Positions 2,719-20,212 of a stretch of 64,000 nt of DNA are shown here, piece by piece (the first letter of the stretch is position 1; every line of letters begins with the position of its first letter). A program made the translations under genes and the position numbers. Location of the stretch: assembly GCA_947625475.1 (NCBI GenBank), contig CANQOL010000004.1, positions 1-64,000 of the forward strand, read 5' to 3'. The notes under the pieces were generated by a model. The model saw nothing but the letters and a program-made list of their open reading frames with translations, was not told where the DNA came from and did no database searches. Origin of the DNA: an uncultured Acetatifactor sp. Lineage in GTDB: Bacteria > Bacillota > Clostridia > Lachnospirales > Lachnospiraceae.

Positions 2719-2761
2719 AGCTGGCCTCCTGCTTTCCTATTTGGTATTATGTACTGCCACT

Positions 2762-4284: not shown

Positions 4285-5129
4285 CCTTCTTCCTCCCTGC
4301 TTATGATTCCAAGTACATCCAATGTCTTTTTGTCTAAAAAATCTTTTGTGGCCTCATCCTTCACATATGGATATATCCTTGCCAGCTTTAGAAGCAGCGC
4401 ATACAAGACTTCCCTGTACTCCGTCTCACTCTGTTCCTGCAGCATATCCTTCAAAAGATCTCTGAATATTATCAATCTGATCGATGTATTTACATGCATC
4501 TTTGTATCTCTTCGGTATGACCACATGACCTGCACATCCTGCAGGAGGGTTGCAATATCCAAAATATATGAGTCAAAAAACGAATCCAAAAAATCAATAT
4601 AATACATCTCATTATTTTTGACTATGATATTTTCCAAAGTCAGATCTCCATGGCAGACACTTTGTCTGATATGCGACCAGTCATGCATTAACAGCTTGTC
4701 CTTTGCCATGTAAAACGGACCCCGTTCATCTCCGGCCGGTCCGATCAATCCATTGATCTTTTCCAGAAAAATTTTTTCCGTATCGCAGGTTCCCGCTGTC
4801 ATTTGATGTGAAAAGATCTCATCAATAATCATCCCTACCAGGCCGCGTATCTTCCCGATTTCGATCCGCTTCATATATTCAGCCAGCGTAACTCCCTGCA
4901 CATACTCCATGTCAAAATAATAATTACCGCTTATATCAACCCCCTCAGCCAACACCGATGGTGTCTTAATATGCAGGCTTGAAAATTCTTTTTGCTTCTC
5001 TGCCTGTCTTTGCAGGCGCTGATTATATTCCTGATCCCTTGCAATCTTTCGCACAAACAGCCTGTTGTCGTCTGTTTCACAAAGGAATATATGGCAGCCG
5101 GAATGTCCCCCAAGATCTGTACAAATCAT
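4281..5129 (-). CDS. Aminoglycoside/choline kinase-like phosphotransferase
   Basis: The protein of about 282 residues has the kinase catalytic loop HGDLTLENI and a following metal-binding YIDFLDS segment, which define the APH/choline kinase superfamily. An upstream KIARD may be the ATP-binding lysine strand. The chosen start is an ATG five bases after GGAGG; a TTG four codons earlier is possible but poorer. It overlaps the NTP-transferase stop. In this setting it most likely phosphorylates a small alcohol or sugar destined for glycan decoration, in the manner of LicA-type kinases, rather than acting on an antibiotic. Confidence 0.75.
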   Translation of the reverse strand: MICTDLGGHSGCHIFLCETDDNRLFVRKIARDQEYNQRLQRQAEKQKEFSSLHIKTPSVLAEGVDISGNYYFDMEYVQGVTLAEYMKRIEIGKIRGLVGMIIDEIFSHQMTAGTCDTEKIFLEKINGLIGPAGDERGPFYMAKDKLLMHDWSHIRQSVCHGDLTLENIIVKNNEMYYIDFLDSFFDSYILDIATLLQDVQVMWSYRRDTKMHVNTSIRLIIFRDLLKDMLQEQSETEYREVLYALLLKLARIYPYVKDEATKDFLDKKTLDVLGIISREEEG

Positions 5130-5130
5130 G

Positions 5131-5886
5131 TCATCCTCCAAAAGTATTTTCTTCTAACAAGTCAAACCGCTCAGATTCCTTTGCATCTTCGTACTCTTGC
5201 GGCGTCCCAAATTCCACATGTGCATCCAGCAGGCAGTCTTTCACAACACCCCTATCCCGGCAGATAATATTATACAGACCGCTTACAAACAATTCTGTGT
5301 ACGCACATTCATCCCGATATATCCTCAATGTTTCCCGAAACAGTTCTGCATTCTTAAAATAATATGCGCCGCAGATCGCATGATCACTCACTACCCTCTT
5401 CTCTACTGTGCCGATGATTTCCCCGTCCTCTGCATATTGGACATAACTGAACCTGGGTTGGTCAGCCAGGAATGTGAGCAATATACCATCCGGATCCTGT
5501 TCGATCAATTTTGAAAGATTTTTGCAGAAAAACATGTGATCACAATCATTGAACAGAACCGGGAGGCCGTCATGGATATTTCTGACCCCTTCCAGGCATG
5601 TCAGCGCCGCCCCCGGCAAAACATGAGGGATACATACAATATTGGCTTCAGGGAAAAGATTTAATATCTGTTTATCAATCTCAAATTTCTTTATGTGAGA
5701 TTCCAGAACAACAAATGTGATATCCTCTACTTCCACTGATCTTAAAACCGACATCACAGCCCAGAAAAAAAACGGTCTTCCTTTTATCATCATTAACGGT
5801 TTCGGGCATGTATACCCCTGATCCCTGAAACGGGATCCTTCACCTCCCATGGGCATGATCAGATGTATTTTTTTCATCTTACGCAT
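5131..5886 (-). CDS. Nucleotidyltransferase of capsule-type (BcbE-like)
   Basis: This 251-residue protein has a canonical nucleotide-binding signature, GGEGSRFRDQGYTCPKPLM, near residues 14-32 and a metal-binding FNDCDHMF near 112-119. It therefore belongs to the GT-A-fold nucleotidyltransferases; the arrangement recalls the BcbE-like capsule enzymes. It would join a nucleotide to a phosphorylated small molecule made by the adjacent kinase. The gene begins 8 bp after the acetyltransferase stop. An in-frame ATG three codons downstream, with AAAGGA before it, is an alternative start. Confidence 0.75.
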   Translation of the reverse strand: MRKMKKIHLIMPMGGEGSRFRDQGYTCPKPLMMIKGRPFFFWAVMSVLRSVEVEDITFVVLESHIKKFEIDKQILNLFPEANIVCIPHVLPGAALTCLEGVRNIHDGLPVLFNDCDHMFFCKNLSKLIEQDPDGILLTFLADQPRFSYVQYAEDGEIIGTVEKRVVSDHAICGAYYFKNAELFRETLRIYRDECAYTELFVSGLYNIICRDRGVVKDCLLDAHVEFGTPQEYEDAKESERFDLLEENTFGG

Positions 5887-5893
5887 TCCTTTC

Positions 5894-6652
5894 CTACTGC
5901 AACGATAAGGTTTTGATGATCTCCGTCCCTGTCAAAACCTCTGGTTCGTATTTATTCAGCCGTCCCGCTGCCACATCATTGCGGATACGGTCGATGAACT
6001 GCTCCACCGGGATATCGCCATCCATATCTTTAAAATCTGTGAAACAATAGTCCCACCATTGAAGCTCCAACATATCCTCAATTATCTTGTCTGGAAAACG
6101 CATCTTCAAAAGGCGGGCCGGAACGCCACCCCAGATAGCATAAGGAGGGACATCTTTTGTCACGACAGCCCCCGTGGCAATAATGGCACCATCCCCGATA
6201 TGGATACCAGGTTTAAGTGCAACATTCTGCCCGATCCAGACATCATTTTCTATGAAAATAGGCGGTCTTGGAGGTATCGCTTTTGCGCGAAACGAATACC
6301 CCCCCCCAGATTCTTTTGCCTTTTCAGCAAAAAGCACCGCCTTAGAATCATATGTCACACTGGAATTAGCAAAACGTTCATAGGGATGCTGAACTCCAAA
6401 AATGCGAATACCAGATGCTAAACTGGAATATCTTTTTATCCACATATCTGTTGCCAAGGCACTCCAGGAATATGAGAAACTCCCTATGAAGGCCGGAATC
6501 ACAGAACCGGTTAGGATCTCACAATACGGCTCTACTTTTGCATCTCCACAAACCCACATCGATTCCCCAATTTTAATACGTGTACTTCCGTTGCCTGTAG
6601 TAAAAACTTTTTTGTTTTTGAATAGTTCTATAGTTTTTTCTGTAATCTTCAT
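5894..6652 (-). CDS. Hexapeptide-repeat O-acetyltransferase (CatB/XAT type)
   Basis: The 252-residue protein contains left-handed beta-helix hexapeptide repeats, clearest in IGDGAIIATGAVVTKDV and the closing WGGVPARLLKMRF, typical of xenobiotic/CatB-type and NodL-type acetyltransferases. FGVQHPY in the middle corresponds to the loop that carries the catalytic histidine in this family. It probably acetylates a polysaccharide sugar in the cytoplasm. The 84-bp gap before it is the largest within the downstream half of the operon and holds a possible secondary promoter, so this gene may start a sub-operon. Confidence 0.8.
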   Translation of the reverse strand: MKITEKTIELFKNKKVFTTGNGSTRIKIGESMWVCGDAKVEPYCEILTGSVIPAFIGSFSYSWSALATDMWIKRYSSLASGIRIFGVQHPYERFANSSVTYDSKAVLFAEKAKESGGGYSFRAKAIPPRPPIFIENDVWIGQNVALKPGIHIGDGAIIATGAVVTKDVPPYAIWGGVPARLLKMRFPDKIIEDMLELQWWDYCFTDFKDMDGDIPVEQFIDRIRNDVAAGRLNKYEPEVLTGTEIIKTLSLQ

Positions 6653-6685
6653 ATAAGTTTATCTCCCCATTTATCCCGCTCTACC

Positions 6686-6715
6686 ATTGTAAATCCCGCA
6701 AAACAAGTCTCACAA
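6686..6715 (-). promoter_or_regulatory. Possible internal promoter before the decoration cassette
   Basis: On the minus strand TTGTGA (6710-6715) and TACAAT (6686-6691) are separated by 18 bp, ahead of the acetyltransferase gene. The -10 is good and the -35 is partial, so this is a tentative call. Confidence 0.35.
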
Positions 6716-6736
6716 CACCTGGATTTTTTACCTTCT

Positions 6737-8710
6737 TTATCGGCTCACCCGATTCGACACCTCTGCCAAGAACCGATGCCTCTCCCTCATCAATTCACAG
6801 AGAATCACCGTGTAGGGCTGCGTCAGGTCGTAACCTGCCTTTTCCAGCAGTTCCGGTCTCACTCCCTGCATGATCCGGTACAGCTCTCTGACCGTCTTTA
6901 CCTGGCTGTTCTCCCCATTGGGGCACTGCCACTCCTGCATCACATATCCCTTTGTATTGTTGATGATCATCTTCTTATAGTAGTCGCCGTTGAGCACTCC
7001 CAGGATCTTCCCCTGGACCTCCCCGTTCTCCTCCTTGCCTGCTTCCTCCATCACATCCCCCAGCGTCTCCAGAATCTCCTCGCACTTCTTCGTTGAGATC
7101 CAGTCCTGACGGTATAAGCGCCGCTGCAGATACACCGGCTTCTTCCAGTACACCTTCTTATGGGCCTTCATCAGACTCTCCAGCACAAAAACCTGGCCGG
7201 TCAGCAGGGAGCACTCCTGAAAGGCAAGCCCGCTTTCCTGCAGAAACTCCCTCCGGTATAACAGGTTGTGGAGATCACAGTGATAATAATCTCCCTCGGA
7301 TGCCTCCCAGCCATCATCCGTCCGGCTTTTCCCTCTGCGAAACTCACTTTTGACAACCGGTGCCGCAAACCCTCTGTCATCCGCCAGACACCCCTCACTG
7401 GCACAGATCTCCGCCTCGGATGCGGACACATACCGATACCATTCCTCCAGGGCATTTTCACTTCCATACCAGCCGCAGTGGTCCGCAAACTGCACATACT
7501 CTCCGCATGCCAGATTGATTCCCACATTCAAAGCCCTCGCGTAGCTTCCGCGGCTCATGTTATACAGCCGGATTCTCTTATCCCGGAACAGATTTTTGTG
7601 AAGAACCGCATAGGTTTCGTCCGGCGCCCCGCTGTTGATAATCAGGATCTCCAGCTCTCTCAGACTCTGGCTCCCCAGGCTCTCCAGCAGCTCCGATACA
7701 TACTCCCCCTTGTCATTGATCGGGATTACCACGGATACCCTGGGCGCCGTTCCCTTCTCTTTCGACAGTTCCTCAAAGTATGTGAACTGCTCTGTGATCC
7801 AGCCTGGCAGCTCCCTCCGGAAACTGTAGTATCCGCACCGGATCCAGGCCTCCACCAATTCAGTGGCACATGCTGTTTTCTCCTCCAGGGTCAGATATAT
7901 GTAATCCGCATACAGGAAGGGAATGCTCCATTCCAGGAACCGTCTTCTGGTCTTCTCATCCTCCCTCTCCAGAATTCCCGCCATATGCCGGATCAGCTTT
8001 GCATGCCCCTTTCCCTTATAGGTAGAAATCCGGTACACATCCTGCTGCATCATGGAACCCTCCCGATACCAGCAGTAGTGATAGAGTTTGTCCGGGATCA
8101 AAGTGATCCCCTTTGCCTTTGTATACAGTTTTGCCTGGAAGGCCTTGTCCTCCCCAAGCAGGATGCTTTCCTCCAGCCGCAGGTGTTCTCTCTCAATCAG
8201 ATCCCGGCTGGCCAGCACTCTCCACAAAAAGGGCGTGGCGGGCACACCCTCAAAGAGCAGTTCCGGCTCAAAGCTCTCATAATGACGGTAAGAAGGATTC
8301 AAAACCTGACGTAACCAGTCACCGGGGTCTGGCTCCTGCGGAAAGATCTGGGCACCGCATATAACCACCTCCGACCTTTCCCGCTCTGCCGTTTCGTAGA
8401 GTCTTCGGAACATATCGCTCTCCACGTAATCATCTGAATCCACAAAACCGACATACTTCCCCCGGGCCACATTCATTGCAGCGTTTCTGGCAGAGGGCAG
8501 TCCTCCGTTTTTCTTGTCTACAATCCGGATCCGCCGATCCTTTTTCCGGTACTTTTCCAGAACAGCCCTGCTTCCGTCTGTGGAACCGTCATTGACACAG
8601 ATGATTTCGATATGGGTCAGTGTCTGCCGCATAAGGCTTTCCAAACATCTGGGCAGATATTTTTCCACGTTATAGACAGGCACTGTGATGGATACCAATG
8701 GCTCTCTCAT
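6737..8710 (-). CDS. Bifunctional-looking glycosyltransferase with two GT2 domains
   Basis: This protein has about 657 residues. The N-terminal domain is a canonical family-2 glycosyltransferase, with VSITVPVYNVEKY, NDGSTDGS and a DSDD metal-binding motif. A second GT2-like domain starts around residue 325 (PRVSVVIPINDKGEY). Its acidic motif is replaced by FADHCGW, so the second domain may be inactive or use a different metal arrangement. The start chosen is the ATG that follows GGAGG and lies just past the upstream stop codon; 18 more codons are open upstream but overlap the previous gene. It is a cytoplasmic, membrane-associated enzyme adding sugars to the lipid-linked repeat unit. Confidence 0.85.
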   Translation of the reverse strand: MREPLVSITVPVYNVEKYLPRCLESLMRQTLTHIEIICVNDGSTDGSRAVLEKYRKKDRRIRIVDKKNGGLPSARNAAMNVARGKYVGFVDSDDYVESDMFRRLYETAERERSEVVICGAQIFPQEPDPGDWLRQVLNPSYRHYESFEPELLFEGVPATPFLWRVLASRDLIEREHLRLEESILLGEDKAFQAKLYTKAKGITLIPDKLYHYCWYREGSMMQQDVYRISTYKGKGHAKLIRHMAGILEREDEKTRRRFLEWSIPFLYADYIYLTLEEKTACATELVEAWIRCGYYSFRRELPGWITEQFTYFEELSKEKGTAPRVSVVIPINDKGEYVSELLESLGSQSLRELEILIINSGAPDETYAVLHKNLFRDKRIRLYNMSRGSYARALNVGINLACGEYVQFADHCGWYGSENALEEWYRYVSASEAEICASEGCLADDRGFAAPVVKSEFRRGKSRTDDGWEASEGDYYHCDLHNLLYRREFLQESGLAFQECSLLTGQVFVLESLMKAHKKVYWKKPVYLQRRLYRQDWISTKKCEEILETLGDVMEEAGKEENGEVQGKILGVLNGDYYKKMIINNTKGYVMQEWQCPNGENSQVKTVRELYRIMQGVRPELLEKAGYDLTQPYTVILCELMRERHRFLAEVSNRVSR

Positions 8711-8711
8711 C

Positions 8712-10511
8712 TCATTTTCCTCCCCGCAGCTTCTGAAAAGCATACCGCACGGTCTGCTTCGCACCGTTATGCCGGTAATAAAACTTCAGTTTTCCCATGA
8801 AGGAATAGCTGCGCCATTCTTCCCAGCCCTTTTCAGGCGCTGGAGAGACGGCGGCCGTCTGGCCGCTCTCCCCTGCCTCCTCAGATACTGGAACTGCGAG
8901 CTGAGTAGAAGCAAAAGCAGCCCGGTTGATTTCCTTCTGATCCCTCTCAAACTGCGTCTCTAAAGCTCCCAGGCTCCAGGAAACAAACGGGAACAAAGCC
9001 GGGACCTTTTCCGCCATATCCCACCAAAAGTTGGCGAAGGTCCCCTGGGGGTTCTCCCAGGGCAGGTTGTCTCCATAAAACAGGATCGGCTTCCACAATG
9101 CGTCCGCCTGGTAGCTTCCACGGGTCTTCCCACGGTCAAACAGACTTCCGGAGGCCGTCTGGGCTCCCAGCGTCATCAGATACCAGGGCACATAACCTAT
9201 CTGACCCTGAAGGATTTCGTTAAGAAGCTTCTCCCCGTCCCTCCCCCCGCGGATACCGGTCATGGCGCTCTGCAGCACCTGATGGGAACGGAATCGGGCA
9301 CAGTTAATCACCAAAAAAGAGGAATCCACCTTCTTATGGGTACTCTCCTCGTCATACTTTCCCAGCGGAGCCCCCACCGCCCAGAAATCATCCACGCTGC
9401 AGGTCCGGTAGAACTCACTTAAATCTCCCAGTATGAGAGTGCTCTCCTCCAGATAAAGACACTTGTTTACCTGGGGCAGAAGCTGGGACACTGCCAGCGG
9501 ATAGTATTCCCTCTGGAGATCTGTCTCCAGAAATTGCAGGCTTGTATTCTCATATTTATTCGGAAAGTATTCAAATTTCTTTTTGAGCCCCTCCTCCGTC
9601 CGGCTCCCGGTCAGAAGGTAGATTTCATACCGGCTCTCCGGCTTCTTATTCACCAGCATGGAAGTCAGAGTCACCGCCAGGGCAAACGGATTTTCCTCAT
9701 CCAAAGACAACACCAGCGGCACTGTCACCGGCTCCGACACAAAGGAAATGGGCAGCACCTTGTAGGTCAAACTCTGATCCTGCATCAGCTTCGCTATGTA
9801 CACCCCCGTCAGACGCTCGGAGATGAACAGGCGCTTCTCCGACAAATCCACCCGTCTCTCAAACTCTTCCAGGATCTCAAAGATCCACTGGCAGTAATCA
9901 AAGAATATCTCCCGGCGGAAAATGAACATGTTGCAGAAGCTGCTGATATCCCCCGCAAAATATTCCTCCGCAGTTTCCCTGTACTCCGGATGCTTTTCAT
10001 ATAAGATTTCAAAAGCAAGATCCAGGTCTTCCTTTCTGTGATTCTCCACATAATGACGGTACACATGGTTGACCTTGCCAAGATGTGTCACAAAATCGCA
10101 GCCCTGCACCAGCTTTCTGAGGGCCTCCGGGGAATAACCGATCTCCTCCAGGTAATGCTCCCCCATATTCTCAAAGGGGATCACATCGATTTCCCCCTCA
10201 TGGAGAACAAAGTGACGGCGGTAGTGCATCAGACCGATATAATCCGGATTCCCCAGCTTCTCATAGTTTTTCCAGGCCCAGTACAGGGCGGTCATCTCAT
10301 TGTAAGAGCGATTTTTCTCCGATATGTTCTCCCCTGTGTCGTCCCCGATCATGTTCTCCGTCAGCCAGCGGTATTCTTCACTTTTGGGATCCATCCGTTT
10401 CTGTGCCAGGGCACGTCCCACATGGATGGGTGTCAGAATCTCATCCTGGAAAAGCTGTGAGGGTTTGTGATAACAGATCAATAATCTAATTCCCGGTTCC
10501 TTCTCGTTCAT
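8712..10511 (-). CDS. DUF4422 protein fused to a GT8-like glycosyltransferase
   Basis: This protein has about 599 residues. The first 240 match the DUF4422 capsular-synthesis type, with YNEMTALYWAWKNY and GLMHYRRHF. From about 255 to 500 it resembles a family-8 glycosyltransferase: repeated secondary structure, YEIYLLTG, a CLYLEESTLILGDL segment in place of the usual DxD region, and FLVINCARFR. The GT8 acidic motif is weak. The start is an ATG with AAGGA upstream, 5 bp beyond the previous stop. The ragged C-terminal 100 residues are low complexity. It is presumably one of the repeat-unit transferases. Confidence 0.75.
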   Translation of the reverse strand: MNEKEPGIRLLICYHKPSQLFQDEILTPIHVGRALAQKRMDPKSEEYRWLTENMIGDDTGENISEKNRSYNEMTALYWAWKNYEKLGNPDYIGLMHYRRHFVLHEGEIDVIPFENMGEHYLEEIGYSPEALRKLVQGCDFVTHLGKVNHVYRHYVENHRKEDLDLAFEILYEKHPEYRETAEEYFAGDISSFCNMFIFRREIFFDYCQWIFEILEEFERRVDLSEKRLFISERLTGVYIAKLMQDQSLTYKVLPISFVSEPVTVPLVLSLDEENPFALAVTLTSMLVNKKPESRYEIYLLTGSRTEEGLKKKFEYFPNKYENTSLQFLETDLQREYYPLAVSQLLPQVNKCLYLEESTLILGDLSEFYRTCSVDDFWAVGAPLGKYDEESTHKKVDSSFLVINCARFRSHQVLQSAMTGIRGGRDGEKLLNEILQGQIGYVPWYLMTLGAQTASGSLFDRGKTRGSYQADALWKPILFYGDNLPWENPQGTFANFWWDMAEKVPALFPFVSWSLGALETQFERDQKEINRAAFASTQLAVPVSEEAGESGQTAAVSPAPEKGWEEWRSYSFMGKLKFYYRHNGAKQTVRYAFQKLRGGK

Positions 10512-10515
10512 GTTC

Positions 10516-12768
10516 TTATTCCTTAGCCTTTCGTCCATCCATAAGATTTTCCAATTCGTTTATCTTTCTCAGCAAATATAAAGTCGCATCATACTGTTTC
10601 TCACAAGGACTTTCTAAGGCCTCTTGCAGCCATCCTAGGGATACCTTTTTTTCTCTCTCCAAAATGGTATTTACTTTCTCATAATTCACTTCCCGAAGCA
10701 GTTCCTCATTGTCTGGAATTTCTTCCGCCTCTTTTACCATATGTTCCCTGATCTCCAACAAATTGAACAACGATTCAAACCGGGTAAGTCCCCTCCCTTT
10801 ATTGGCTATACACAAAAAATTTTTCTGATAAATCAAACCAAAACAAATTCCATGATGGGAATCGGATACTAAAAACCGGCAGCCGCGGATTAAACTCAAG
10901 AAATCTTCTATCGTTACCTGGTCCAGCACGTCGCCGCTTTTCCATATTTCTCGGCTCTTATCATAGGTCTTCATGTCCAATATCACTTTTTTCAAGATTC
11001 CCAGCTTTTCCTGCACATACTGAATCGCTCTTTCCTTCTCCGGAGTTGGATCCAGAATATAACATAAAAGATATTCCTCTTTTTCCTGCGTATGGGCAGA
11101 TGCATCCGCCAGGATATCATAATGGCCTCTTTCACAGAGAAAAACCGGATCTAACATCCGCACTGCTTCCACCCCAAAGGACTTACGGCAGGCATCCACT
11201 CCGGAGATTTCCCGGACTGACACCCAGTCAAAGTTTTTCAGAAAGGCGGAGGCCCTCACACATTCCTCTTCCGTCCCTTCAAAGGCTTCATATCCCAGCG
11301 AAGTGGCATAGGCAATCTTCTTCTTTCGATCATCTACAAAATCCAAGAAAAAAGTATATCCAACGCTTTTAATGTAGCTCGATACCCACAGCTGATCCGA
11401 CCCTGTCATGAAAGCATCACAAAACCTGTTGCATTCTCCCAACTCTTCAAACTTTCTTTCCCGGCTTATCGGAAAATATCGGCTCATGAAAGAAATATTT
11501 TCTTCCGTAATTTTTTCCCAGCCTGTTCCGTCTTTCTTGGGCAGCCGGATCAGAATAGGCAGCAGATCCATATCCTGCAGAACATTCCCCAGGGCATAAT
11601 ATGTTAATACACTTCCATAGTTAGCCGCGAACCACCAGCCCACCAAACCGACATCATATCGGTACTTTTGACCGTACCACAATGCCTTATGAAAACCATC
11701 CTTTTCCAGATGATGGAAGAAAAATTTTCTGCCCGGTTTTAACTGCATAGGTCTCACCAGCTGGCCGTTATACGGCGTTGCCGCTGTCACCGGTGCTTCC
11801 CTGCACAGCTTTAGCTTCTCTCGAATTCTCTCAAACAGATGCTCTCCTTTAGGACTGTTCAAAAGGACCAAGGACGTTCCTTTCCAGTCATTACAAGAAG
11901 GATCCCACTTATGTACCTGCCAAAAATCCCCCAAGGTAATATCCCCTACCCGGCCTAGGGACGCATAGTGACATTTCCCGCAGCATTTTCGGTTCATAAT
12001 TCCATGAAAAGCGGTATTAAAAGGCGTTTTGTTCCAGGGCAAATCCAAAACGGTTCCATCTTCAAAATAAATGACAGAAGGCGTAGACCAGCCATGCCTG
12101 GATTTATCCCTGAAATTTACCTCTTTAATTCTCCTTCCTTTGGCACTCTCCTGGACAAAAGACTGATAGGCAGACACGGAATTAGCTCCGTGGCACACCA
12201 AGTCCACCGTATACAGCTTTTCATAAGGCTTTCCCAAAAAGGTATACAAACCCGCCGTTTGGCAGGGGCAGCCAGAAAACAATACTTCCCTGCCCTCTTC
12301 CAAACATTTTTGAATTTCACTATAAACCTCTTTGGTATCACTTTGCACATACTTAGATCCGCGCATCTTAGCCAGACCGGCTTCATCCTTTGTCACCGTA
12401 TGATATACCGTCATATAATCATCAGCATACACAGCTCCACAGACACTTCCCCCCATCTCCAGAACGGACAGTGCCAAGAGAGTGAACATGCCGCCCGAAG
12501 AACTAACCATCCTCAGTGTATCCTCTGCCATGGCAGCCAGGCAGGTTTCCTTGGGAGGATGACACAATTCTTTCCATTTTTCGCCGCATTCCGGGCAGGC
12601 GCGCTCACACAAACCGCATCCTACACACTTTGTTTCATCAAACACAGGATGCAAAAAACCTTCCAGATCGTAACACATTGATATGGCACCTGCCGGGCAG
12701 GCATTATAGCAGGCCCCGCAGCCTGTACAAATATGTTTTTTGATCACTTCATGTTCTATTCTCAACAT
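10516..12768 (-). CDS. Ferredoxin/FrhB-type protein fused to a polysaccharide pyruvyltransferase
   Basis: The 750-residue protein opens with two 4Fe-4S clusters (CTGCGACYNACP from C14, then CVGCGLCERACP). A coenzyme F420 hydrogenase beta-subunit-type region follows to about 360, with CPCQTAGL and the CCGKCHYA pair. From about 378 it becomes a pyruvyltransferase domain (GWWFAANYGSVLTYYAL), with SDSHHGICFGLIYQK as the conserved histidine block. The fusion suggests that electrons or a cofactor are used on the same glycan that receives the pyruvyl ketal. It is the longest gene of the operon. The C-terminal 70 residues look like a coiled linker. Confidence 0.8.
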   Translation of the reverse strand: MLRIEHEVIKKHICTGCGACYNACPAGAISMCYDLEGFLHPVFDETKCVGCGLCERACPECGEKWKELCHPPKETCLAAMAEDTLRMVSSSGGMFTLLALSVLEMGGSVCGAVYADDYMTVYHTVTKDEAGLAKMRGSKYVQSDTKEVYSEIQKCLEEGREVLFSGCPCQTAGLYTFLGKPYEKLYTVDLVCHGANSVSAYQSFVQESAKGRRIKEVNFRDKSRHGWSTPSVIYFEDGTVLDLPWNKTPFNTAFHGIMNRKCCGKCHYASLGRVGDITLGDFWQVHKWDPSCNDWKGTSLVLLNSPKGEHLFERIREKLKLCREAPVTAATPYNGQLVRPMQLKPGRKFFFHHLEKDGFHKALWYGQKYRYDVGLVGWWFAANYGSVLTYYALGNVLQDMDLLPILIRLPKKDGTGWEKITEENISFMSRYFPISRERKFEELGECNRFCDAFMTGSDQLWVSSYIKSVGYTFFLDFVDDRKKKIAYATSLGYEAFEGTEEECVRASAFLKNFDWVSVREISGVDACRKSFGVEAVRMLDPVFLCERGHYDILADASAHTQEKEEYLLCYILDPTPEKERAIQYVQEKLGILKKVILDMKTYDKSREIWKSGDVLDQVTIEDFLSLIRGCRFLVSDSHHGICFGLIYQKNFLCIANKGRGLTRFESLFNLLEIREHMVKEAEEIPDNEELLREVNYEKVNTILEREKKVSLGWLQEALESPCEKQYDATLYLLRKINELENLMDGRKAKE

Positions 12769-12797
12769 TCTCGTTTTCCCTTCTCAATTTTTTCGAT

Positions 12798-14525
12798 TTA
12801 CTTATTGCTATTCATAAAATTGATTACTGTCTCCGAAAATGGGATATGCTCCGAAATTTCCATCAAAAAATCAGCCATATTTCTAATGGATTCATTAACA
12901 AAATATTCCTCATACTTTTCTTCTATAATCTCTTTCATTAAATTTAAAGACGCCGTAATATAACTACCGGTGGGATTATTTTTGCCTGATACAGAAAAAT
13001 CGTTGCGCAATCTTTCATAAAACTGCTTTGCCAGATCATTATCATTATATTTTTCCGAATACATTCCGTAAAAATAAATTGCCGCAATCTTGTCGACGGG
13101 CATCGGCCAATTATAAAATTGTCTCGATCTTTGATATCTAGTGAATACAAATTTTGCCATCGGAATATTTTGCGGACTAATCTGTTCCGTTAATAACATT
13201 TCGGCTATTTTTCTCATAATTTTAGGGTTTTGATTTCTAGCCGATGTAAACAATGCTATTTCGGATAAATTACTGTTTAGTTTTCTAAATTCGTCATTTT
13301 TTTCTTGTATCCGATTATAAAAGCGCCCTTCCTTATTGCTGCATATTTCTTTTAACATATCTGCTTCCGCATTATCTATTTGATAATATGAAAATAATAT
13401 TTTAGTTGCATCGGCAAATGTTATTCCGTTACTTTTTCTTTGAAATCTATTCCACCCTTTAAGCCACCTGACCGGTTCAATTCCAAAATACCTTTTTCCA
13501 AAAGCAGCCGTTTCCTGAAATTCATCTTCAGTAAATGTGTTATTTAACGCATATCCCTGACTTGCTAATTTCATAATTTCCCCGTATATTTTTTTACTTG
13601 CAGGGTTAATCTCAATATTGCCTGAAATTATTTTGTCTAATATAACAGGAGAATCCAATGTTGTAACCCATGGTTTTGATACTCCGATTGTGCCTCGGAA
13701 TAAGTCTAAAATGTTTATTGGCTTACTATCTACATTTAGCTCCTTATTCCCAACTAAATAAAAACAACTATATAATATTAAAAAATACAATGCATATAAT
13801 TTATTTAGTGTTCCAGGCAAAACCATATCCTTATTTTCGAATGCCTCTGGAGTATTTCGAATTTCCCACTCCAATGTCCAATATTTAAAAACATTTAAAA
13901 AATCATTGAGGACAGGATATGTAGTAATAAATGGATTTATAAAAAACAAAAAATCCGGCACCAATATGTCATCGTATTTCAATAAGGTATTTCCAAAAAC
14001 TATCATTTTAAACAAGTCAATCTTGTAGCCTATATAGCAGATATCATCCATACAAAAAGGAGCTGAAATCGAGAATTGACTCACTGCAATCTTATACGAT
14101 AAACTGCTATGGAAATTCCCATAATTTTTTACTGATAAATCTCCATTTCCCCTCAATATCAAATCCATTTTGTTAAAAATATCCATACAGAAATCTGTTC
14201 TGCATTTCAGGACAAAAACATCATCCGGAATCCTTAATAAACCTTTCCATATTTGCGTAGCCTGACGAGTATAACTCAGTTGCAGTAATCCATCACATGA
14301 ATCGTCAAAAGGAGGCAATTCTACCAAATAAATGTCAAGATAGATCAACTTATTTCTTAATTCAGGTATTTGATCTACTTCCCCTATCCAAGTTGATAAA
14401 ACAATTCCTTCTATTAACCCTTCCGCACGAAGCTCACATAGCCGTGCCAGCAATAATGAAAACTCAAACTCTTGCCTTATGGCTCCACACATAAGAGCCC
14501 AGACTTTTTTCCCCATGATTGCCAT
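12798..14525 (-). CDS. WavE-like polysaccharide synthesis protein
   Basis: This protein has 575 residues. Residues 1-230 recall the WavE family of LPS/capsule proteins: VLSTWIGEVDQIPE near 40, YTRQATQIWKGLL near 85, then VLKCRTDF with a conserved RxD. The C-terminal half is unrecognised and helical. The gene is visibly AT-rich compared with its GC-rich neighbours, so it was probably acquired separately. GGAGG lies 11 bases before the ATG. It starts 6 bp beyond the preceding stop and is presumably a glycosyltransferase of the repeat unit. Confidence 0.55.
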   Translation of the reverse strand: MAIMGKKVWALMCGAIRQEFEFSLLLARLCELRAEGLIEGIVLSTWIGEVDQIPELRNKLIYLDIYLVELPPFDDSCDGLLQLSYTRQATQIWKGLLRIPDDVFVLKCRTDFCMDIFNKMDLILRGNGDLSVKNYGNFHSSLSYKIAVSQFSISAPFCMDDICYIGYKIDLFKMIVFGNTLLKYDDILVPDFLFFINPFITTYPVLNDFLNVFKYWTLEWEIRNTPEAFENKDMVLPGTLNKLYALYFLILYSCFYLVGNKELNVDSKPINILDLFRGTIGVSKPWVTTLDSPVILDKIISGNIEINPASKKIYGEIMKLASQGYALNNTFTEDEFQETAAFGKRYFGIEPVRWLKGWNRFQRKSNGITFADATKILFSYYQIDNAEADMLKEICSNKEGRFYNRIQEKNDEFRKLNSNLSEIALFTSARNQNPKIMRKIAEMLLTEQISPQNIPMAKFVFTRYQRSRQFYNWPMPVDKIAAIYFYGMYSEKYNDNDLAKQFYERLRNDFSVSGKNNPTGSYITASLNLMKEIIEEKYEEYFVNESIRNMADFLMEISEHIPFSETVINFMNSNK

Positions 14526-14531
14526 ACCGGC

Positions 14532-16034
14532 TCATTCCTCCCAAATTCTGATCCATTGAAAGCACAAATAGGAATCAGCACCTTTAAAATCGGTACTCGT
14601 CAGCATAATCCACCTCAGTCCATCATTCCGTGGCACATAGGATCCATTTAAAACACACCATGTATGAGGCGAAAAACCTCTCAAAGTTTGCAATATAGGG
14701 CACCCCCCATCCTGTGTATTTTTATTCGACAGCATGATTCGTACTCCCTGTACATTCGTATTCACCTTTATTTTGATACTGAAACCGTACCGGATACCTC
14801 TCTTTAACTCCCTTTCCAGGGGCAGGAAAATTCTCTGCCAGCTTACACTAGATGGCAGCAAATATTGGGTATCCCCTATGGTTCTCCTTCCCCAGGCATC
14901 AGGATTTAAAATAATCCAGGCCTTCGCGTCTCCGGCATGGTAATCCAAAACATACCCTCTAGCCGATCGGCTTTTCTCTCTATCTGATACGGCTTGCATA
15001 TATCCGTGTGTAAACCACTTCTCAAAGAAGTCCTTCCTCTCTGGCGGTTCTTTTCTGCCTCCGGCGCTTCCTAATCCTTTTTGAACAGCACCCAAAGAAA
15101 CCGGAGTGAGCATCACTTTCTTATCCTGCACTGCTTCTCTGAACCATTCCTCAGCCCCAGAGCTTCTAAAACCTAACAGAGACGTCCCCTTCCCATCCCC
15201 CCTTTGTACCTGTGAGAAAACACCTACCACAATATCCCCGATACGCTCCATGCCGCCATAGATGCATTCATAACAGCTTTTTCGAAGGAAATGTCCCTCC
15301 ATATAGGGCGTCAGCCAGTCCCCTTTTTCTACCTCCCTATATACGTCCTTCTGGGTACGGATCCGCACAGACGGTCCTCCTCCAAGCTCTTTTGAATACA
15401 GCTTGATCTCTGTCGCCGCCTCGTCTCCAATCCTGCTTCTTATATAATCCCTCCAAAGATCCCCGGGTGCAGTTCCCTCGCACACCAGTTCCACTGTCAA
15501 AAGATTGTCCGACCTTCCTCCCAGGAAACACAATAATCCGTCAATCTGACAGGCCGTTCCAACAAAAAGAGTTTTCCCATCTTCTGTCAGACTTCTTTGT
15601 ATCTCCGGGAAAACCTCCGATGCATCTCCCTCCAAAAAGGGAATCTGACAAACCCATCCCCATTCTCTTGAAAATTTGATGCTCCGGTATGTAGCTTTGT
15701 CATAGTGATCTGTAAAAGCAGCGGCATATATGACTCCACCCTGAGAAGCAAAAGCATCCATAATGACCCACAGCGCGGCTCCTCCCACAGCGTTCCACCG
15801 GGTAAAATCTTCCGCCGCGAAACTGTACCAGACCGCCTTTCCCTTTTCAGACGGGCACAGCAACGGACATTTTTCTGCACATTTGCTGCACATATTACAG
15901 GCATTCGGGTCCACATAAGGATATGCAAAGCCTTCCACTGTCTTTTTCATATCTATAGCCTGCTCCGGGCAAGACCTCACACAGGCACCGCAGCCAGTAC
16001 ATCTTTTTCTCTCTACTGATAGGATCGAATCCAT
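14532..16034 (-). CDS. Ferredoxin/FrhB-type protein of a polysaccharide locus
   Basis: With the chosen start the protein has about 500 residues. It carries two N-terminal 4Fe-4S motifs (CTGCGACVRSCP and CNMCSKCAEKCP) and an FrhB-type domain with VGTACQIDGLL and CYECIYGG to about residue 345. The last 120 residues are beta-rich and unlike the other FrhB protein in this operon; they may bind carbohydrate, which is inference. I chose the ATG seven bases after GAGGAG; an ATG 16 codons upstream (16082) has no ribosome site. The role of such redox proteins in glycan loci is not established. Confidence 0.7.
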   Translation of the reverse strand: MDSILSVERKRCTGCGACVRSCPEQAIDMKKTVEGFAYPYVDPNACNMCSKCAEKCPLLCPSEKGKAVWYSFAAEDFTRWNAVGGAALWVIMDAFASQGGVIYAAAFTDHYDKATYRSIKFSREWGWVCQIPFLEGDASEVFPEIQRSLTEDGKTLFVGTACQIDGLLCFLGGRSDNLLTVELVCEGTAPGDLWRDYIRSRIGDEAATEIKLYSKELGGGPSVRIRTQKDVYREVEKGDWLTPYMEGHFLRKSCYECIYGGMERIGDIVVGVFSQVQRGDGKGTSLLGFRSSGAEEWFREAVQDKKVMLTPVSLGAVQKGLGSAGGRKEPPERKDFFEKWFTHGYMQAVSDREKSRSARGYVLDYHAGDAKAWIILNPDAWGRRTIGDTQYLLPSSVSWQRIFLPLERELKRGIRYGFSIKIKVNTNVQGVRIMLSNKNTQDGGCPILQTLRGFSPHTWCVLNGSYVPRNDGLRWIMLTSTDFKGADSYLCFQWIRIWEE

Positions 16035-16105
16035 TGCCATTCTCCTCGCTTCCGATTCTTCTGCTTTTTGGGGGTCAAACATTTAAAAAGCTTCATGCTC
16101 TTTCA

Positions 16106-17605
16106 TCAGTCCGGCAGATTTTCCGGATTCTTCTCCAAGTCCTGCTTCCTGACCCCCAGCTGCACTAGCCTCCATAAAACCGCATTCCCAAGCCGGGTGG
16201 CGTATCTCTTCCGGCTAAGGCGCTTATGATGCGCCTCCGGGTTGATTCCCTCCAGCCCCTTCCAGCCCTTCAGGTAATCCACCAGCCCAAGAATCCCCAG
16301 GCGCTCCCCCAGGTAATCTCCCCTGCGGTGGCATTCTGAAATCTTCCCCTTCCAAAACCTCAGGATCTCCTCCCGCCCGAAAGGCTGGCTGTACAGCTCA
16401 TTCACAAACAGGCTGTTGCGCACGTCGTAGTAGACAATCACCGGATCCTGACGTTTCTCGTAGGTCTCATGCCACACCTGGATCCCGTTCAGGATCAGCG
16501 GCTTCCCTCCCTGCCGCAGGCCATACTCCACGTCGTCGCAGTGCAGGAAAAAGGGTAAGGGACGGTTGGCTTTTATGTACTCTATGGGGTAGCAGCACAT
16601 CCACCAGCCCCCGTACTGGGCTCCCCGATTGCCGTTCATCCCGGGCAGGTTCTCCCGCAGGCCCATATCCAGGTCCCAGCCGATGTGACGGATCTCTCCC
16701 CCGTTCCAGATCTCCGCCGCCGTGTACTGGATCTGACGGCGGTCTGTGCGGAACATCCGGCCTGCCACGGCCTCCTTTCGGTACTCTTCCCTCAGGCAGG
16801 ACAGCAGGGCGCACAGCCTGGCAATGCTCTCCATTTGCAGCTCCGCATCGTCGTCCATCAGCAGCACATGGATTGCGGGGAACTCAGGAAGGCTTCTCAC
16901 CGTCTCTTCCATCCCCCGGCCAAAACCTCCGGAGCCCCCGGTGTTGGGGTTGGGATAGAGCCTTACCCGGCCTCCGTACTGCTCCGGCCAGCCATCCCCC
17001 AGCTCACGGCCGTTGTCCACCACCAGGATCCGGGAGGCATAGCCCCTCTCCCTCTCCAGCTTTTCCAGCCCGGGACATAACCTGCTTAAATTCTTCTCCA
17101 GCTGTGCCCTTCTGTGATAGGTGCAGATGACAATGGACAGGCAGATCTCCCGTCTCCCAGCCGCCCTGGCCTGCCAGGAGCTCTCCAGGATCCGGCTGTT
17201 CTCCCATGCCTCCCACTGCCAGTAGAGCATTCCTTTTGCCTTATCCTCTGGGAGGGATATCAACTTTTCCTCCGGCAAAGGCAGGCTCCAGACGGCTTCG
17301 GCCAGAAGCTCGTCGGAGGCCGTTCTGCCCCCAGCAGCGCCCGCTTCCCCCGGATTTCCCATCCGATAGATCCGAAGCCTCCCTCTTCCCTGAAGGCGGA
17401 TCTGCAGGCAGATCCCGGAAATCTCCCCGTACCTTTCCCAGGCATCCGCATCCAGCAGGTTCATGTAGGTGTCTGTGCGGATCCGGCTCCCCTCCGCAAG
17501 CTCTAAAATCCCATCCTGTGTCTGAACTGTTTCCCCGCTCTCCCGATAGTACAGCTCCCTCTCCGGGCACACCTCATCCGGCAGGGCCGTCGTCTGCAGG
17601 ATCAC
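16106..17605 (-). CDS. GlfT2-like glycosyltransferase
   Basis: This protein has 499 residues. An N-terminal beta-rich region (to about 155) is followed by a GT2-fold catalytic region with SIVICTYHRR, VVDNG, a DDDAE triad, HCDDVEYGLR and WHETY. That set resembles the galactofuranosyltransferase GlfT2 family. The start is a GTG whose last two bases overlap the recombinase stop (GTGA), with GGAGGGGG just upstream. Translation is therefore coupled to the degenerate recombinase gene. A longer frame to 17746 exists only as overlap inside that gene and lacks a plausible N-terminal sequence. Confidence 0.8.
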   Translation of the reverse strand: MILQTTALPDEVCPERELYYRESGETVQTQDGILELAEGSRIRTDTYMNLLDADAWERYGEISGICLQIRLQGRGRLRIYRMGNPGEAGAAGGRTASDELLAEAVWSLPLPEEKLISLPEDKAKGMLYWQWEAWENSRILESSWQARAAGRREICLSIVICTYHRRAQLEKNLSRLCPGLEKLERERGYASRILVVDNGRELGDGWPEQYGGRVRLYPNPNTGGSGGFGRGMEETVRSLPEFPAIHVLLMDDDAELQMESIARLCALLSCLREEYRKEAVAGRMFRTDRRQIQYTAAEIWNGGEIRHIGWDLDMGLRENLPGMNGNRGAQYGGWWMCCYPIEYIKANRPLPFFLHCDDVEYGLRQGGKPLILNGIQVWHETYEKRQDPVIVYYDVRNSLFVNELYSQPFGREEILRFWKGKISECHRRGDYLGERLGILGLVDYLKGWKGLEGINPEAHHKRLSRKRYATRLGNAVLWRLVQLGVRKQDLEKNPENLPD

Positions 17606-18825
17606 CTTACCCCCTCCGCCACCAGGCCGATCGCCTCGATCTTGCTCCGCAGGCTGGGACGGCTGCAGCTGGCGTAGGTACTCTGCACCGTGGCATTCCC
17701 CAGGATCTCTGTGATCGTCACCAGATCCACTCCGCTGCTCATACACCGGCTGATAAAGAGCTTGCGCAGGCTGCTGAAGCTGATATCCGGCAGCCCCTCG
17801 CTCTTCAGCAGGGCCCGCAGACGGTACTGCATGGTCCGGGGCTCCACCGGGGTTTCCTTCCCCGACAGGAAGAAGGTGCCTCTTTCCCCCTGAAGCCTCC
17901 CCAGGATCTCCCGCAGGAACGGGGCCAGGGGGATCACCCTCTCCCCAGGGCCTCCCTTTAAGTCGATCAGCACCAGGCCCGTGTTCTCCCCAACTGAAAT
18001 CCGCTGCAGGGTCTGGCGCACCGAGACCAGGCCCTCATCCAGGTTCACATCCTCCCACCGCAGGGCGCACAGCTCCCCGATCTTCAGTCCCCCGAAGAGG
18101 GTTAAGAGAATCCCCGCCTTGGTGGGGGTGGGATCTTTTGTCAGCGCCTGGCAGAGCCTCTCACAGAGGGTCTCATCGTACAAAAATTCACCCTTTCCCC
18201 TCTCCCGGCCCTGTTTCTGGCTCTGAACGTCCCGGCGGTCCCCATACCGGCCCTGTGTACCGCTGCCGTCCATGGCCTGTTTCTGGATACCCTGGCTGGC
18301 CGCCGCCTGACCCTGGATATCCTGGCTGGCCGCTGCCTGGCCCTGGATTCCCTGGCCGTCTGCCGCCTGTTCCTGGATATCCTGGCCGCCTGCCGCCTGT
18401 TTCCGCAGACCTCCGTCCGGCGCAGCCTGATCCTGCGCATTCCAGCCCTGTACGCTTTGCCCAGTCCACCCCTGGCCGCTCAGGCCGGCCCGGCTCTTCC
18501 CAGGCTTTTCCAGCACCACATCCAGCCCCGGGTCCGGGCAGCCGTACACCCGGGACACATACTTGGTGATCATCTTGGTCTGCACCAGGTTGTCGTAGGT
18601 GTACTGGGGCGTCAGCCCCTCCTCCAGAAGGCGCTTCTCCAGACCCTTGATCTGTTCGCCCGTGATTTCCTTCCATTTCATTTTTTCAAAGTAGGGGAGA
18701 ATATTTTTTGTGAATTTGACCGTATACTGGGCATAAGAGGTGGGCTTGACACGCTGCTTGACCCAGCCCAGCCATTCCCTGGCCGCTGTCTCAAAAGATA
18801 TGTTTTCTGCGCTTGCTCTGTCCAT
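17602..18825 (-). CDS. Tyrosine recombinase homologue lacking most catalytic residues
   Basis: The 407-residue protein has the core-binding domain (1-110) and the catalytic fold (212-407) of a tyrosine recombinase. Set against its neighbour, Arg-I becomes K248, the HxLRH block becomes S351-xx-R354-K355, the next histidine becomes N377 and the nucleophilic tyrosine becomes C387. Only K290 and R354 remain, so strand cleavage is unlikely. Residues about 143-192 are a Q/A/G-rich insert of five near-identical 10-residue units. The gene overlaps the following glycosyltransferase by GTGA. A regulatory or architectural role, alone or with the intact recombinase, is inferred. Decay is also possible, but the frame is fully open. 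Confidence 0.75.
   Translation of the reverse strand: MDRASAENISFETAAREWLGWVKQRVKPTSYAQYTVKFTKNILPYFEKMKWKEITGEQIKGLEKRLLEEGLTPQYTYDNLVQTKMITKYVSRVYGCPDPGLDVVLEKPGKSRAGLSGQGWTGQSVQGWNAQDQAAPDGGLRKQAAGGQDIQEQAADGQGIQGQAAASQDIQGQAAASQGIQKQAMDGSGTQGRYGDRRDVQSQKQGRERGKGEFLYDETLCERLCQALTKDPTPTKAGILLTLFGGLKIGELCALRWEDVNLDEGLVSVRQTLQRISVGENTGLVLIDLKGGPGERVIPLAPFLREILGRLQGERGTFFLSGKETPVEPRTMQYRLRALLKSEGLPDISFSSLRKLFISRCMSSGVDLVTITEILGNATVQSTYASCSRPSLRSKIEAIGLVAEGVR
18250..18399 (-). repeat. Five 30-bp repeats coding a Q/A-rich linker
   Basis: Five tandem 30-bp units encode ten-residue variants of QAAxxQxIQx between the two domains of the degenerate recombinase. In-frame expansion or contraction would leave the protein open. 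Confidence 0.8.
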
Positions 18826-18870
18826 GGGCTCCCCTCCGCTCTTCGGCGCCGCGATGCCTGCGGTTCTTGA

Positions 18871-18890
18871 ATTACGTCATTGACGAAAAA
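18871..18890 (-). other. Left inverted recombinase-type site
   Basis: Read on the minus strand this 20-mer matches 18 of 20 bases of the site at 20070-20089 in the opposite orientation. It lies between the two recombinase genes. The second arm present at the right site is poorly conserved here. Confidence 0.55.
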
Positions 18891-18917
18891 CCTTGCCGGA
18901 CCGAAGAAAAACAGAGC

Positions 18918-18933
18918 CCCTGACCGCGTCAGG
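18918..18933 (-). terminator. Small hairpin between the recombinase genes
   Basis: CCTGA and TCAGG arms around a five-base loop overlap the stop codon of the intact recombinase. On the minus strand a short T run follows about eight bases later. It could act as a weak attenuator. Confidence 0.25.
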
Positions 18934-19981
18934 CCGCGAAATGCAGCCGTCCCATAAACTGCTTCTTCCTCTCCAGGGAAGAATGCACATACCGGTTCAG
19001 CGTGATCTCTACCCCGGAATGCCCCAGTATCTCACTCAGGGACTTCACGTCGAACCCCATCTCCACACAGTTGGTGGCAAACATATGCCGCAGGGCGTGG
19101 AAATGGATTGACGGCAGATATGCTTTTTTGAGCAGCCCCTGGAACCGGTACTGCATCAGCCGGGGTTCCACAGGCTTTTTTGTGCCGGAGAGCACATAGG
19201 CCCCTCCCTCCCGGCTAAACTGCGCCAGCATAGGCAGAAGGCAGTCCGGAATCGGAATGATCCGCACGGATGAGATACTCTTGGGATCCGTGATTACCAG
19301 CTTTGTCCCGGTCTCCGTGTGAATGCGCTGGATCGTTCGGGAGACAGAAATCGTCCTTTGCTCCAAATCAATATCCGACCACCGCAGGCCGCACAGCTCC
19401 CCGATGCGCAGCCCGGTGAACAGGGACAAGGCCACGCCCAAGGAGGTCAGGTTCCGGTTCTCACACAGGTATTTGTGCAGACAAATCTGCTGCGGTCTCG
19501 TCAGCAGCAGGACATCCGTCCGCTGTTTCTTTGGCAGGATCACATCCCCGATGGGATTTCGGATGTTATAGCGGCTGACGGCAAATTTAATCAAGGCTTT
19601 TAAAAGGATCACGATGTCCGCCACATACCCGGCGGAGAGGCCGCTCTCCCGCTTTTCCCGGATAAATCTCTGGACGTCCGGCCCACTCAGATCCACCACT
19701 CTCACACTTCCGAAGGCCGGGAGAATGTGGGTCTTGGCCTTTCCCCTGTAGTTGGCCAGAGTGGACTCCTTTACCCTCAGCTGTACGGACTCCGTCCACT
19801 CTCCAAAAAGCGTTTCTACCGTCAGATCCGTGGTTTCATAGATCTGACTGTCGCAGAAGTATTCCATCTTGCTTTTGACTTCCTCTCTTGTCCTTCCGTA
19901 AAAATAGCAGGTTTTTCCCTGTCTTTTGTCCGTCAGCCGGCCCTCAAACCGGCCGTCCCTGCGGTGGTAAATACTTCCCAT
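18929..19981 (-). CDS. Tyrosine recombinase (intact)
   Basis: This 350-residue recombinase has all expected residues: R192 in TGLRIGEL, K234, H295 and R298 in HALRH, H321, and nucleophile Y331. The N-terminal arm (GSIYHRRDGRFEGRL) and core-binding domain (about 53-155) are typical. The start is the ATG after AGAGGG; 42 further upstream codons are open but hold the promoter region and no ribosome site. It is the first gene of the polysaccharide operon, and matching inverted sites lie on either side of it. It could therefore invert its own gene and the promoter, or use the sites for autoregulation. No phage genes or tRNA attachment target are seen. Confidence 0.85.
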   Translation of the reverse strand: MGSIYHRRDGRFEGRLTDKRQGKTCYFYGRTREEVKSKMEYFCDSQIYETTDLTVETLFGEWTESVQLRVKESTLANYRGKAKTHILPAFGSVRVVDLSGPDVQRFIREKRESGLSAGYVADIVILLKALIKFAVSRYNIRNPIGDVILPKKQRTDVLLLTRPQQICLHKYLCENRNLTSLGVALSLFTGLRIGELCGLRWSDIDLEQRTISVSRTIQRIHTETGTKLVITDPKSISSVRIIPIPDCLLPMLAQFSREGGAYVLSGTKKPVEPRLMQYRFQGLLKKAYLPSIHFHALRHMFATNCVEMGFDVKSLSEILGHSGVEITLNRYVHSSLERKKQFMGRLHFAA

Positions 19982-20051
19982 AGCGATCCCTCTTTTCCTG
20001 TTGACATTTTTGATATGCCGTGATATGCTAACAACGAGTTTTGGTATTGCT

Positions 20052-20079
20052 ATTTTAATATACAATCTGTTTTTCGCAA
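20052..20079 (-). promoter_or_regulatory. Probable promoter of the polysaccharide operon
   Basis: On the minus strand TTGCGA (20074-20079) and TAAAAT (20052-20057) are 16 bp apart, about 70 bp before the recombinase start. The -35 lies inside the palindromic site. Confidence 0.5.
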
Positions 20080-20098
20080 ATGACGTAATGAGCGAAAA
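20070..20098. other. Right palindromic recombinase-type site
   Basis: Arms TTTTCGC (20071-20077) and GCGAAAA (20092-20098) flank a 14-bp centre containing TGACGTAA, an imperfect palindrome like a tyrosine-recombinase core site. Bases 20070-20089 match 18871-18890 in inverse orientation. Confidence 0.6.
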
Positions 20099-20112
20099 TC
20101 CACGCAAAAAAA

Positions 20113-20149
20113 GAACGAAGTCCCCGCTCCTGTGGCAGAAACTTCGTTC
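20113..20149. terminator. Bidirectional intrinsic terminator
   Basis: Perfect 8-bp arms GAACGAAG and CTTCGTTC are followed by a run of seven T on the minus strand and by TATTTTTCTT on the plus strand. It separates the antiporter operon from the polysaccharide operon. Confidence 0.8.
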
Positions 20150-20212
20150 CTATTTTTCTTGTCCTTCTCCGTCAGGCCCAGGACCGGGCGGCAAAGCCGC
20201 GCCCTTTTCCCG

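Follow-up and report, generated by a model that had tools for sequence, protein, structure and literature searches.

A putative self-encoded promoter inversion cassette at the heads of surface-glycan operons in an uncultured Acetatifactor

Gene content of the locus

The window analysed here, a stretch of 64,000 nucleotides, is the beginning of contig CANQOL010000004.1 (hereafter C4) in the assembly of an uncultured Acetatifactor sp. (GCA_947625475.1). It contained a 1.2 kb segment in which a single gene, that of a tyrosine recombinase termed A, was encoded. The segment lay at the head of a glycan operon whose first gene, termed B, was a paralogue of A. The features of the locus were as follows.

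880..17746, minus strand: glycan operon, putatively controlled by the switch (Pfam and ORF map; extent judged from strand and spacing)
17602..18825, minus strand: B, tyrosine-recombinase paralogue and first gene of the operon (alignment, dN/dS and tree)
18864..18891, minus strand: putative operon-side recombination site, made up of a weak outer arm (TTCTTGA side), the core ATTACGTCATT and the inner arm GACGAAAAAC (inverted-repeat search and alignment)
18929..19981, minus strand: recombinase A, a tyrosine recombinase of 350 aa inside the segment (Pfam and catalytic residues)
20001..20029, plus strand: outward promoter, TTGACA-17-TATGCT, 10/12, with TG before the -10 (consensus match)
20052..20079, minus strand: weak promoter-like match for A, TTGCGA-16-TAAAAT, 9/12
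20069..20098, minus strand: putative distal recombination site, TTTTCGCTCAT-TACGTC-ATTTGCGAAAA, near-palindromic
20111..20151, both strands: predicted bidirectional hairpin terminator immediately beyond the distal site, with a run of T on each strand

The reading frame of A started with an ATG at 19981 and ended with a stop codon at 18929. It encoded a Phage_integrase domain (E 1.7e-24) and also a SAM-like domain (Pfam), and alignment revealed that the catalytic residues R-K-H-R-H-H-Y were all kept. The closest solved relative of A by sequence was the integrase (Int) of Tn1549. Genes of the glycan operon encoded a galactofuranosyltransferase-like protein, GT2 enzymes, a pyruvyl transferase, FrhB-type proteins, a DUF4422 protein, a hexapeptide transferase, a nucleotidyl transferase, a phosphotransferase, a HAD protein and a cytidylyltransferase-like protein. 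The upstream neighbour of the locus was an unrelated Mrp-antiporter/NADH-dehydrogenase-like cluster (Pfam).

Recombination sites

A repeat search followed by alignment placed an inverted repeat at 18871-18891 and 20069-20089, with 19 of 21 positions complementary and 1,177 nt between the two copies (ATTACGTCATTGACGAAAAAC at 18871-18891 against ATTACGTCATTTGCGAAAAAC, the reverse complement of 20069-20089). First-order Markov shuffles of both intergenic stretches (n = 60) gave at most 15 of 21. An earlier note on this DNA, made from the letters and their open reading frames, had described an inverted match of 18 in 20 bases around an intact tyrosine recombinase gene, with a right-hand site that was itself a palindrome. 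All three observations held up: the match was slightly longer than reported, the gene was a full ORF with the complete RKHRHHY set, and the right-hand site was a near-palindrome about its TACGTC centre.

When A and B were searched against their own genome (3.09 Mb in 78 contigs), the paralogues were found to be mostly paired, and eight complete loci could be read, namely that of the window and those on contigs C15, C21, C35, C48, C50, C6 and C1. Outside these eight, A-type genes without a B neighbour were present at C4:108643 and C9:266. The former (C4:108643-109746, L037), on the same contig as the window, was flanked by a 25-bp inverted repeat with one mismatch and had a perfect outward promoter.

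Inverted repeats bracketed A at all eight loci and spanned 1.21-1.44 kb end to end. Seven loci shared TTTGCGAAA, or a closely similar sequence, as their inner arm, and C50 carried a 28-bp repeat of its own. The arms of the distal site in the window were those of C15, C21 and C35, with centres that differed (TACGTC in the window, TTCACC in C15, TTCGCC in C21 and TTCGAC in C35), and the cores of C48, C6, C1 and C50 were different again, that of C1 with one mismatch. The core was therefore private to each locus and common to both sites within it, and the arms were conserved between loci. Conserved arms around a centre that agrees only within a locus are what the crossover sites of tyrosine recombinases require, and private cores of this kind should prevent recombination between loci. 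In a pattern search of the genome, arms like those of the window matched four positions and no others, each of them at an A gene, and with this four-locus arm pattern no orphan site lacking a recombinase was found.

The operons downstream of B on C6, C1, C48 and C50, and on C53 (part of a ninth locus, described below), were glycan operons too, encoding glycosyltransferases, pyruvyl transferase, NeuB, GHMP kinase and nucleotidyl transferases. The genome holds at least eight surface-sugar clusters, each headed by a segment of about 1.2 kb with its own recombinase gene and outward promoter, and each can probably be switched on and off.

Orientation of the segments

A was co-directional with B and the operon at six of the eight loci, and divergent from B at C6 and C1. 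The B-side arm just outside the core was TTTCGTTTAA in C48, where A is co-directional, and likewise in the divergent C6 and C1. Since the outer arms of C6 and C1 were unchanged while A was reversed, the stretch between the cores appears to have flipped with its surroundings kept.

The ninth locus was split between contigs C53 (19,234 bp, with B) and C55 (18,813 bp), the terminal bases of both being TCCGCCATTTACGAAA, with which a site ends; the joining piece of ~1.2 kb was missing. A repeat so short should not alone break an assembly at both ends, and a mixture of orientations, as judged from contig ends rather than from reads, would break contigs exactly where the ends of the segment diverge. 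The smallest contig among those sampled was 2.8 kb, so that a 1.2-kb piece may simply have dropped out of the assembly. No genome was found with the window locus itself reversed, the best A within the genus being only 48% identical. Its paralogues suggest that the window locus inverts, and their orientations might instead record an older rearrangement.

These observations bear on the possibility that nothing inverts and that the sites merely serve as operators, to which A (and B) would bind in autoregulation. A's own weak promoter is indeed overlapped by the distal inner arm, and A may for this reason regulate itself besides inverting the segment. Binding alone, however, does not need cores that are private to each locus within conserved arms; two loci were reversed with an unchanged outer arm, contigs broke exactly at the site, and A is catalytically intact by its residues. 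Autoregulation alone, put forward earlier as the alternative to inversion, is disfavoured by the occurrence of loci in both orientations, and we regard it as very improbable.

Promoters and terminators

The best-scoring promoter was directed outward, antisense to A, at all nine loci scored in this genome, including the locus without B at C4:108643. At every locus, a near-consensus promoter of this direction lay between the start codon of A and the distal site, and that of the window pointed out of the segment. The window sequence, TTGACA-17-TATGCT, recurred at C15, C21 and C35, with TTGACA-17-TATACT at C48, TTGTCA-17-TATACT at C6 and TTGCAA-17-TATACT at C1, and in an alignment of seven loci both hexamers stood out as conserved islands. 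In the window, the match in the direction of A did not reach the 95% shuffle level, and its -35 overlapped the inner arm of the distal site.

The predicted terminator at 20111-20151 folded with -27 and -17 kcal/mol (z -4.4 and -3.6; terminator scan, both strands folded). Seven of the eight loci had a terminator on the side opposite B, whichever way A pointed, the scan detecting none at the distal end of C6; on the B side, none was detected at the eight loci scanned. In the window, a hairpin at 18919-18933 was considered as a possible terminator separating A from B and rejected, being no more stable than shuffled sequences. The predicted outward promoter thus faced the terminator in the window, and at C6 and C1 it was directed at B and the operon. 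In the orientation as assembled, the terminator would stop the outward transcript and insulate the locus from the upstream operon. Judged from this placement, the assembled state of the window operon is probably OFF, and inversion would turn it ON. As no terminator separates A from B, the OFF state may be leaky through the weak promoter of A.

Relatives of A

Relatives of A were examined in 80 cases from named genomes, together with loci from the genus and the order. The sources included Ruminococcus flavefaciens, Butyricicoccus pullicaecorum, Blautia glucerasea, Eisenbergiella porci and many uncultured Clostridia. A flanking inverted repeat, counted at a score of ≥17 (shuffle maxima ~10-17), was present in 66 relatives. 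The outward promoter outscored the match in the direction of A in 63 of these 66, a set that includes near-identical copies and does not amount to 66 independent cases. Scores above the 95% shuffle level were reached by the outward promoter in 53 relatives, often as a perfect TTGACA-17-TATAAT, and by the A direction in five. On the promoter side, the neighbouring gene was directed away from the segment in 29 relatives and faced it in 32, a distribution that would be expected if both orientations are captured in assemblies. Sampled neighbours encoded Wzz, a sugar transferase, a GT8 glycosyltransferase, BspA-type and InlB-repeat surface proteins and GHKL kinases; no B-type neighbour was found beside the relatives surveyed. 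Longer inverted repeats, of 55-174 bp, occurred in relatives L091, L043, L110, L138 and L155, and those of L138 and L155 contained the site twice.

The polarity deduced above is opposite to that of the earlier note, in which the best leftward promoter, at 20052-20079, served the operon; on that reading it would drive A, B and the glycan genes, the locus would be ON as assembled and inversion would strip the operon of its promoter. That match does exist (9/12); A, B and the operon are co-directional with no terminator separating A from B, and six of the eight loci are in the orientation of the assembled window. The match is not, however, the best in the segment, a position held by the outward promoter (10/12) on the opposite strand, and it scored lower than the outward promoter at all nine loci scored in the genome and in nearly all repeat-flanked relatives. 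The earlier polarity would also leave a strong promoter facing a terminator with no gene to drive. We consider it unlikely and retain the reading in which the outward promoter serves the operon. The broader proposal of the note, a self-encoded inversion switch heading a surface-glycan operon, gained support from the eight paralogous loci, two of them reversed, and from dozens of relatives; B as a dead recombinase, the multi-locus set and the locus-specific cores had all gone unnoticed.

B, a catalytically dead paralogue

B headed the operon at all nine loci, giving nine open copies (the eight loci and C53). In the window B, alignment with the catalytic residues of A revealed H replaced by S, RH by RK, LGH by LGN and Tyr by Cys, and the first Arg was Lys. 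The active site was lost in all nine copies: the H of HxxR was S or N, the following H was K, R, N, D or G, LGH was LGN and the nucleophilic Tyr was Cys (Phe in C53), while A kept every residue. Pairwise dN/dS was 0.13-0.43 for B against 0.09-0.25 for A, indicating that B is under purifying selection and is not decaying. A predicted model of the C50 B, built from an alignment that also held A-type sequences, had a mean pLDDT of 80.8 and a pTM of 0.58, and matched the DNA-bound Tn1549 Int (E 7e-14, TM-score 0.75). The B proteins of the window, C15, C21 and C35 had a Gln/Gly/Ala-rich linker of variable length, in which GGQGIQGQAA-like units were repeated, between their two domains; this linker was absent from the remaining B proteins.

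Whether B is a relic without function and without part in switching can be judged from these data. Catalytic residues are missing from every copy, as would be expected of a relic, but nine open copies of one clade at nine operon heads, their dN/dS values and the recombinase-like predicted fold all speak for a retained function, and we find the relic reading rather improbable.

In phylogenetic analysis, the nine B sequences formed one clade (support 100) and seven of the eight A sequences another (98). The A and B trees split alike, into {C48, C6, C1} and {window, C15, C21, C35}. At C50, where B belonged to the common clade, the A lineage was a different one and the site, of 28 bp, wholly different, as though A and its sites had been replaced together. 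The B genes of the window and of C35 (L033:6852-8057) differed little (dS 0.17) and the corresponding A genes far more (dS 1.02), which suggests that B was exchanged or converted between these two loci.

The trees also weigh on the view that the segment is a minimal mobile unit of the Tn916/Tn1549 type, a recombinase gene with terminal repeats, and not a resident switch. Elements of this type have short variable sequences at their ends, and Tn1549 Int is the nearest to A among solved structures. In the present loci, however, the variable centre was identical at both ends of each locus, the outer arms beyond it were conserved, every copy stood at the same place beside B, and nothing but A was encoded in the 1.2 kb. 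Together with the matching split of the A and B trees at seven loci, this marks the segments as old residents. A mobile unit is therefore an extremely improbable explanation, and the loci are treated below as resident switches.

No other B was found in ~1,200 distinct genomes by profile searches of the genus, family, order and class; these comprised 1,301 genome-searches with overlap, in most of which the best few candidates per genome were scored, so that a diverged B could escape. Copies from the genome itself scored >460 bits and the next matches ~300 bits or lower, the latter being A-type where checked. Such matches were rejected as B, those checked being catalytically intact with the exception of the L195 protein (RRHRHHH).

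Proposed mechanism

The anatomy of the locus, the private cores, the orientations of the paralogues, the placement of promoters and terminators and the lost active site of B can all be read from the sequence, and they suggest that A catalyses the inversion. The segment is likely a self-contained invertible promoter cassette, composed of A, two sites and an outward promoter that would control the glycan operon. In the proposed mechanism, A would recombine the two inverted sites, with strand exchange in the locus-private centre of ~6 bp. In the assembled orientation, the outward promoter would fire into the bidirectional terminator and the operon would be OFF, receiving at most weak read-through from A's promoter. 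After inversion, the outward promoter would face the operon, and B and ~17 kb of glycan genes would be transcribed (ON). The promoter of A would move along with A, which would be expressible in both states and switching thus reversible.

B would be made mainly in the ON state and, by binding arms of the same type, either by itself or in tetramers mixed with A, would hold the switch, whether by stabilising ON in cis or by keeping sister loci OFF in trans. Holding the switch is the likeliest role for B because it is both the first gene transcribed when ON and a dead homologue of the flipping enzyme; this step is the least certain of the mechanism, and we advance it tentatively. By extension, B may be a dedicated inversion regulator that locks the chosen glycan on and the others off, through occupancy of the arms at its own and sister loci or poisoning of mixed tetramers with A. 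A search of the open-access literature found no relevant paper on the regulation of inversion by dead tyrosine recombinases, and we know of no inversion system with exclusion by a pseudo-recombinase among surface sugars.

Comparison with known systems

Invertible promoters of surface loci are, as a general kind, well known. Hin, the serine recombinase of the flagellar phase switch of Salmonella, can be expressed in both states. Its gene lies inside the segment that it inverts (PMC5903667). The present loci resemble this switch in that recombinase and promoter are both inside the invertible segment and the recombinase would be expressible in both states. They differ in that A is a tyrosine recombinase (Phage_integrase) and not a serine enzyme, in having private sites at many loci, and in an operon promoter that points away from the recombinase gene.

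Detailed knowledge of multi-locus capsule switching comes from Bacteroides. As in the genome studied here, several surface-polysaccharide operons per genome lie behind invertible promoters, with regulatory genes at the operon head. In Bacteroides, however, a single master serine recombinase, Mpi, acts from outside on many small segments (PMC5903667), whereas at eight loci here each segment encloses a tyrosine recombinase of its own, A. The operon heads differ as well: where Bacteroides has UpxY/UpxZ, the first gene here is the dead recombinase B, and genes for glycosyltransferases come after it. As an operon-head gene that acts by repression on the other capsule loci (PMC7315117), UpxZ would be a functional parallel to the proposed B, with an unrelated mechanism.

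Most characterised recombinases are encoded near the switch but outside it, the exceptions being Hin and the fimbrial segment of Providencia stuartii (PMC5903667). The latter encloses its recombinase gene, as does the segment described here, but represents a single fimbrial locus (PMC5903667). RecV of C. difficile is likewise a case of inversion by a tyrosine recombinase in Clostridia, but acts in trans on several switches (PMC5903667). Among solved structures, the integrases of Tn1549/Tn916 come closest to A in sequence and to the B model in fold; the sites here differ in being inverted and in enclosing only A and promoters, and transposition functions are absent. In a 2025 survey, inverton group 139 comprised 33 invertons, 32 of them from Clostridia, was linked to invertase group 35 and had a tyrosine-type recombinase nearby in nearly all cases (PMC11892184). 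Group 139 and invertase group 35 may be the present class, and they differ from it, as far as the main text of the survey goes, in that neither an outward promoter beside an in-segment recombinase nor a dead paralogue is mentioned (PMC11892184).

Relative to the literature compared, the combination of an in-segment recombinase with an outward promoter, private cores at many loci and a dead paralogue in each operon has not been described. It would constitute an independent version of multi-locus surface switching, probably of the Lachnospiraceae, in which each switch has an enzyme and a crossover sequence of its own. Dozens of Clostridia have such an outward promoter next to a recombinase flanked by repeats, which offers a simple way of telling ON from OFF in an assembly, and the dead paralogue heading every operon provides a testable case of control over inversion by a pseudo-enzyme.
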